The translations under genes were made by a program, and so were the position numbers. This document shows, piece by piece, positions 28,767-30,019 of a DNA stretch of 34,240 nucleotides. The notes beneath the pieces were generated by a model. The model was not told the origin of the DNA. It saw only the letters and a program-made list of their open reading frames with translations, and searched no databases. Numbering within the stretch: position 1 is the stretch's first letter; each line of letters opens with the position of its first letter. The DNA is from Rariglobus sp. Its GTDB lineage: Bacteria; Verrucomicrobiota; Verrucomicrobiia; Opitutales; Opitutaceae. The stretch is taken from positions 1 through 34,240 of the forward strand of contig JAQSWS010000046.1 of assembly GCA_029266495.1 (NCBI GenBank), written 5' to 3'.

Positions 28767-29825
28767 ATGGCCAAATCGTCGCGCATGACCCTTTGTTCCT
28801 TTTGCGGGAAATCCCAGGCGGAGGTTAAAAAAATCATCGCCGGCCCGGGAGTGCATATTTGCGACGCCTGCGTGAACGTCTGCAAGACGATCATCGACCG
28901 CGAAGTGAAGCAGCCGGCGGTTGATGCGAAGCCCGCGTTCCGTCTGGTCAAACCGTCCGAAGTCAAAGCCGCGCTGGATGATTTCGTGATCGGCCAGGAC
29001 CACGCCAAGAAGGTTCTCTCCGTCGCAGTCTACAACCATTACAAGCGCCTCATGTTCGGCGCCGGCCAGACTCCGTCCGGCAACGGTGCGCTTGCGCCCG
29101 AGTTCAACGACGTCGAGATCGAGAAGAGCAATATTCTCCTCGCCGGTCCCACGGGCTCCGGCAAGACGCTGCTCGCCCGCACGCTCGCCAAGGTTCTCGA
29201 TGTGCCCTTTGCGATTTCGGACGCGACCACGCTGACCGAGGCGGGTTACGTGGGTGAAGACGTTGAAAACGTCGTCCTGCGTCTCCTTCAGGCGGCCAAT
29301 TTCGATGTGAAACGCGCCGAGTGCGGGATCATCTACATCGACGAGATCGACAAGATCGGACGCAAGACCGACAACGTTTCGATCACGCGCGACGTGTCCG
29401 GCGAAGGCGTGCAGCAGGCGCTGCTCAAGATCCTCGAAGGCACCGTGTGCAATGTCCCTCCCCAAGGCGGGCGCAAGCATCCGAACCAGGAATACGTGCA
29501 GATCAACACGGCCAACATCCTCTTTATTTGCGGCGGCGCGTTTGTCGGGCTGGAGGGCATCATCGAAAAGCGCCTCGGCCAGCGCGGGCTCGGGTTTTCC
29601 TCGATCAAGGCACAGCTGACCAAGGCCGATTTGATGAGCGCGGAGAGCATCATGAAGTCCATCGAGCCGGGCGACCTGGTGCGCTTCGGGATGATTCCTG
29701 AATTCATCGGCCGTCTTCCGGTCGTGTCGGTGCTCGAACCGCTTCAGGTTGCCGACCTCGAAAAGATTTTGCTCCGCACGAAGAACGCGAATTCACGTCC
29801 GACGCGATCAAGGCCATCGCCATGA
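28767..29825 (+). CDS. clpX: ClpX ATPase, frame-disrupted: N-terminal and AAA+ part
   Basis: 352 residues, of which about 340 are ClpX. It has the zinc-binding domain (C10, C13, C32, C35), Walker A GPTGSGKT (127-134), pore-loop GYVGED (160-165), Walker B IIYIDEID (188-195), and the GLGFSS loop (274-279), the counterpart of the IGF/LGF tripeptide that docks on ClpP. After LRTKNA (336-341) the frame reads an unrelated tail ([11 protein letters not shown]) and stops. ClpX normally continues with about 16 residues (K-N-A-L-x-K-Q-Y-Q-type) and the sensor-2 region. Those resume in another frame at about 29789. The break fits loss of about 49 bases at 29786-29790. Either the gene is truncated or the assembly is wrong here. 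Confidence 0.9.
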
Positions 29826-30019
29826 AGGCCGTCGAGTTGAAGACCGGTGCGCGTGCGCTGCGGGCCATCATGGAAAACATCATGCTTGAAGTGATGTATG
29901 AGCTGCCCCAGCGCGAAGACGTGGTGGAGGTGGTGATCGACTCCGGCGTCGTCGCCGGCAAACGCCGCCCGATTCTCCGCAAGGCGGGCAAGGGCGAGAG
30001 CACGCAGGACGCGGCGTGA
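29789..30019 (+). pseudogene. clpX: ClpX C-terminal fragment in a shifted frame
   Basis: The frame reads [14 protein letters not shown], then LKTGARALRAIMENIMLEVMYELPQREDVVEVVID, which is the ClpX C-terminal subdomain including the sensor-2 arginine in GAR. The first ATG in this frame is at 29822, which would give a 65-residue product, but the homology starts before it at 29789. It has no start signal of its own and depends on the upstream reading frame. Its stop at 30017-30019 lies 2 bases before the MarR gene's end, a convergent arrangement. Confidence 0.85.

Follow-up and report, generated by a model that had tools for sequence, protein, structure and literature searches.

Does the bacterium from which this DNA was assembled really live with a broken clpX, or was the gene broken on the way from cell to contig? 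The question is raised by a Rariglobus contig of 34,240 nucleotides (the window, i.e., the whole stretch of DNA analysed here), in which clpX starts normally behind clpP and the trigger factor gene and changes frame within its C-terminal region. Our answer, to which we give a probability of about 0.88, is that the broken clpX is a sequence artefact of a draft assembly, the cell itself very probably carrying a normal clpX, and that the protease subunit has most likely not been lost.

A clpX gene divided between two frames

The features of the locus, all on the + strand, are the following.

26702-28024, +: trigger factor gene, intact neighbour (440-aa ORF; named in the preliminary description from the sequence)
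28053-28670, +: clpP, intact neighbour (PF00574, E 3.1e-80)
28767-29825, +: clpX ORF as it stands (352 aa; ClpX match to residue 341, last 11 residues unrelated)
28767-29789, +: in-frame 5′ part of clpX (encodes the zinc finger and the large AAA+ domain, ending with LRTKNA; TIGR00382, PF06689, PF07724, dN/dS)
29789-29790, +: blunt junction, 49 bases of the relatives missing (alignment with relatives; end homology 0-1 base, ten relatives)
29789-30019, +: 3′ part of clpX, -1 frame (remainder of the small domain including GAR, up to the stop codon; translation, TIGR00382, ClpB_D2-small, dN/dS)

The preliminary description had the ClpX frame running normally to LRTKNA and then into an unrelated tail, and this is what is found, the stop of that tail lying at 29825. 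The same description placed the expected C-terminus, with its GAR motif, intact in another frame; it does begin with GAATTC at 29789 (EFTSDAIK...GAR...) and stays open in the -1 frame to a stop at 30019, the G of 29789 being common to both frames. A TIGR00382 profile search returns clpX as two pieces in two frames, with profile positions 7-334 at 28782-29789 and 349-412 at 29783-29974. The 352-aa ORF exceeds the curated cut-off of this ClpX family (495.7 bits vs 370.75) and has both the C4 zinc finger (PF06689, 60.1 bits) and the AAA+ domain (PF07724, 114.6 bits); what its frame lacks is a complete small domain carrying the GAR motif. By Pfam, the missing stretch is located in the small domain of ClpX. 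Out of the 81 positions of ClpB_D2-small, an intact relative matches 4-73, the detached tail 29-73 and the ORF of the window none, so that the protein as written would be without most of its small domain and, judging by its sequence, could probably not act as an unfoldase.

The locus resembles clpX of related Opitutae (TIGR00382 / NF003745) in the order trigger factor-clpP-clpX, in the zinc finger, AAA+ domain and GAR motif, and in strong purifying selection, and differs from it in the absence of 49 bases and in a small domain divided between two frames. The trigger factor ORF aligns with ORFs of eight relatives over 436-440 residues, at 69.5-92.7% identity. Two ORFs were noted on the - strand of the window. 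One, of 483 aa (28029-29480), runs antisense to clpP and clpX and is probably a shadow frame, the coding DNA there being GC-rich; the other, of 469 aa (30584-31993), resembles by eye an autotransporter-type protein that is rich in repeats and has a PEP-CTERM-like C-terminus.

The missing stretch in relatives

A loss of about 49 bases, or some 16 residues, had been proposed from remembered homologues. Aligned with its nearest relative, G008 (84% DNA identity), the window lacks exactly 49 bases, i.e., 16 codons plus one base, and comparison with the nearest genomes thus reveals the 49-base-longer allele. The gap rests on six relatives (G008, G009, G004, G003, G001 and the named record RE-9nov16-252); G010, G006, G005, G002 and G007 were in the wrong orientation in the DNA alignment and therefore stand outside this basis. 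At the protein level, where nine relatives were aligned (eight of the genus and one named record), KNA and FT are separated by 17 residues in all nine, e.g. MVKQYSKLFAMDGVRLR, as against a single one in the window, the product of a hybrid E codon formed at the junction, which bears out the estimate of 16 missing residues. The usual reading in intact relatives is KNA-MVKQYSKLFAMDGVRL-(R/K)-FT or near it. When the allele is read on either strand, the 17 residues are found in ten out of ten relatives (eight of the genus, G001 and RE-9nov16-252). The strict KNA-FT pattern fits 14 of 30 further loci, six of these being second copies of genomes already counted, and does not fit the remaining 16; G007 and G012, not read there in the right orientation, are left out of these counts. 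The missing stretch also aligns without a gap in the 3 solved ClpX chains listed. The closest named record found is an Opitutae MAG whose ClpX is 82% identical (in a search that may omit records of the window's own genome). In G012, of the same genus, clpX is split over the end of one contig (C156) and the start of another (C171), the two matches overlapping in the profile.

Across genomes, clpX is seldom missed. The genome of the window (4.89 Mb in 172 contigs, stated completeness 99.75%) is one of 52, among 56 searched, with a clpX match above the family cut-off, and none of the matches listed has an internal stop; for this reason a frame break in clpX is not to be taken as a chance effect. 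The four genomes below the cut-off are G001, whose match begins with the first base of a contig, G023 (67% complete), G051 (50% complete) and G011; the last was considered as a parallel loss of clpX and rejected, its clpP being cut at a contig end. In a family-wide draw, at least 181 of 200 genomes have a match above the cut-off.

The short allele seems to be confined to this contig. The preliminary description had allowed that other strains might share it beside an intact second clpX; neither was found, as the 25-mer spanning the junction occurs in 5 of 184 loci, all of them pieces of the window's own contig, and a profile search of the genome gives no second clpX. That genome also lacks an HslU-like match of the kind many relatives give. 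It does hold a second ClpP (on contig C166), and the AAA_2 search returns, besides this clpX and weaker matches, two large Clp-type ATPases (on C2 and C24). In the literature, no listing on clpX frameshifts or pseudogenes points to a study of this group, and nothing relevant was found on ClpX in Opitutaceae or in the excerpt of PMC7737663.

If the gene had been broken for long, it should have begun to decay, and no decay was seen on either side of the junction, by dN/dS or by invariant columns. Against five relatives, dN/dS is 0.026-0.072 over the 340 5′ codons (0.012-0.083 in five intact control pairs) and 0.120-0.189 over the 76 out-of-frame 3′ codons (0.066-0.249 in control tails); of 289 alignment columns that do not vary among nine relatives, two differ in the window, where leaving out each relative in turn gives 0 to 18 differences. 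The lesion is therefore either very recent or absent from the cell. Collapse at a short repeat was rejected as its origin, since in ten relatives a loss of 49 bases would have 0-1 base of homology at its ends and the best matching run at spacing 49 is 1-3 bases. The nearby 8-base repeats are spaced by 30 bases in several relatives and by 66 in G005, and would drop 30 or 66 bases, in frame.

Similar losses in the same assembly

The same assembly was surveyed in 49 stretches totalling 813,609 bases, of which the window is one, and the reference ORFs were taken from 995,000 bases of G010, a relative in 20 contigs. The final survey covered 48 stretches and 146 matched G010 ORFs over 179,217 bases, some shadow frames being among the ORFs counted; surveys with other filters (42, 99 and 113 gene places) flagged fewer of the losses given below. 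Blunt, out-of-frame losses occur in 5 of the 146 comparable ORFs, so that several conserved genes of one assembly are broken alike:

clpX, window 29789/29790: 49 bases lost
pabB-like gene, contig C6 near 5942 (L190): 68 bases lost; first half FolK-like by eye
alaS, contig C131 near 2828 (L170): 70 bases lost
ABC-F-like ATPase gene, contig C36 near 7076 (L239): 178 bases lost; best NCBIfam match under its cut-off
MBL-fold-like gene, contig C16 near 1228 (L200): 196 bases lost; best NCBIfam match under its cut-off

In all five, the differences from G010 fall mainly at codon position 3 on both sides of the junction; the exception is in the MBL-fold-like ORF, where a single 5′ piece of 112 bases has them spread evenly over the codon positions. 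These five are what was counted out of 11 same-strand pairs flagged as changing frame: L219_0, L215_11 and L210_1 are shadow frames by codon position, L277_7 and L217_11 differ slightly close to the ORF's 5′ end, and L180_6 is an ambiguous difference of one base.

The strongest of the cases is alaS. Its match on C131 is the only one in the genome and is split at profile positions 595/616, and in the other genomes of the genus alaS is one open frame in 11 of 12 and lies on two contigs in the twelfth. N-terminal fragments of AlaS can keep aminoacylation, so the argument from this gene is strong but not absolute. One study, as excerpted, lists alaS as core essential in Enterobacteriaceae and attributes to gene duplication that it looks dispensable in the Keio collection (PMC11481867). 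For the pabB-like gene, 11 of the genus's 12 other genomes give a match above the family cut-off.

The control is small: G009 has no such loss in 36 matched G010 ORFs, again with some shadow frames among those counted, over 40,782 bases, where about 1.2 would be expected at the rate of the window's genome, too few to prove an excess; the one pair flagged there, a self-overlap of 25 residues, was not counted. No in-frame loss of six or more residues with conserved flanks was found in the survey of the window's genome. Randomly dropped bases should leave about one third of the losses in frame and all five are out of frame, which weighs little with five events. Duplicated contig ends, considered as a sign of bad joins, find no support in the repeat densities, as near direct repeats of at least 24 bases are not in excess (6.2 per Mb, vs 4.8 in G009 and 6.0 in G010). 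A run of 20 N on one sampled scaffold (C131 5397-5416, L170) means that the assembly was scaffolded; the five junctions themselves contain no N.

Artefact or deletion

The pattern of several conserved genes hit in the same manner, including one for an aminoacyl-tRNA synthetase, suggests that bases were dropped where contigs were joined. Sequence pieces would have been joined into the 34-kb contig and 49 bases dropped at the blunt junction, shifting the frame of clpX; such joins or gap closures may have lost tens to two hundred bases each, leaving no N, and the cell's own DNA would be intact. We favor this origin for the broken clpX because there is no decay, no repeat at the ends and a set of four similar losses that includes the only alaS. 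On the other side of the balance are the small control, the out-of-frame character of all five losses, the lack of excess in duplicated ends and of N at the junctions, and four tRNA-synt_1 genes of the same genome that look unbroken. Small indels are the usual error of unpolished long-read assemblies, and the losses seen here are larger (49-196 bases) and lie at blunt junctions. There is a likeness to the artificial frameshifts from assembly errors described in the excerpted part of a review on genome finishing, which also mentions the trimming of contig ends before gap filling (PMC5596377); shared with them are the hits on conserved genes and the occurrence of several in one assembly. The preliminary description had judged a misassembly or read error at a short repeat just as possible as a biological loss: the artefact is now much likelier than that, and the short repeat as its cause is gone.

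The main competitor is a real and very recent deletion, in the lineage or in part of its population, which would leave a non-working ClpX truncated after the AAA+ large domain, and ClpP served by a ClpA/ClpC-type ATPase. In its favor, the contig does run through the junction without an N, the genome has the second ClpP and the two large AAA_2 ATPases, and some bacteria, E. coli being one, can do without clpX. The four further losses in the same assembly, one of them in the only alaS, count against a deletion of this kind, as do the absence of the junction 25-mer from every relative among the 184 loci and the lack of decay, by which the event would have to be very young. We consider it unlikely. 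Both processes have a precedent in one study of lake MAGs, as excerpted: deletions within populations are common in some, 0 to 467 per MAG with 80.2% overlapping genes, and most of its genomes below 10x short-read coverage commonly have ORFs broken up by indels left uncorrected (PMC9426551). Programmed -1 frameshifting at the junction, giving a full ClpX 16 residues shorter, could appeal to the overlap of the frames and to a downstream frame open to its normal stop. The preliminary description doubted it, rightly in our opinion, on the ground that residues are gone as well as the frame; those residues are present in nine relatives and gapless in the 3 solved ClpX chains listed, no slippery heptamer is visible by eye at the junction, and we give this mechanism next to no chance.

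The striking biological reading that a truncated ClpX beside intact ClpP and trigger factor would invite is not supported, given that four other conserved genes of the assembly are broken likewise in what is a partial sample. Were the deletions real, a free-living Opitutae-like bacterium would have lost ClpX function very recently, together with out-of-frame deletions in alaS, the pabB-like gene and other conserved genes, which would imply rapid gene breakage in its population or that broken alleles are common there; this we hold to be very improbable. If the lesions were true, one could test whether members of this group are able to live in the absence of ClpX or on a truncated alanyl-tRNA synthetase. 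As it stands, the assembly is unfit for claiming the loss of ClpX, AlaS, PabB or other genes, and a completeness score as high as its own need not reveal internal losses.

Two smaller differences from G010 were noted in the sampled contigs. Near 18288 of C131 (L171), a difference of one base changes the frame relative to a 367-aa G010 ORF, with a mixed codon-position pattern, and at 15026-15190 of C30 (L233) there are 101 and 20 extra bases, in a stretch that is rich in short GTAGT/GCTACT-like repeats and probably intergenic.
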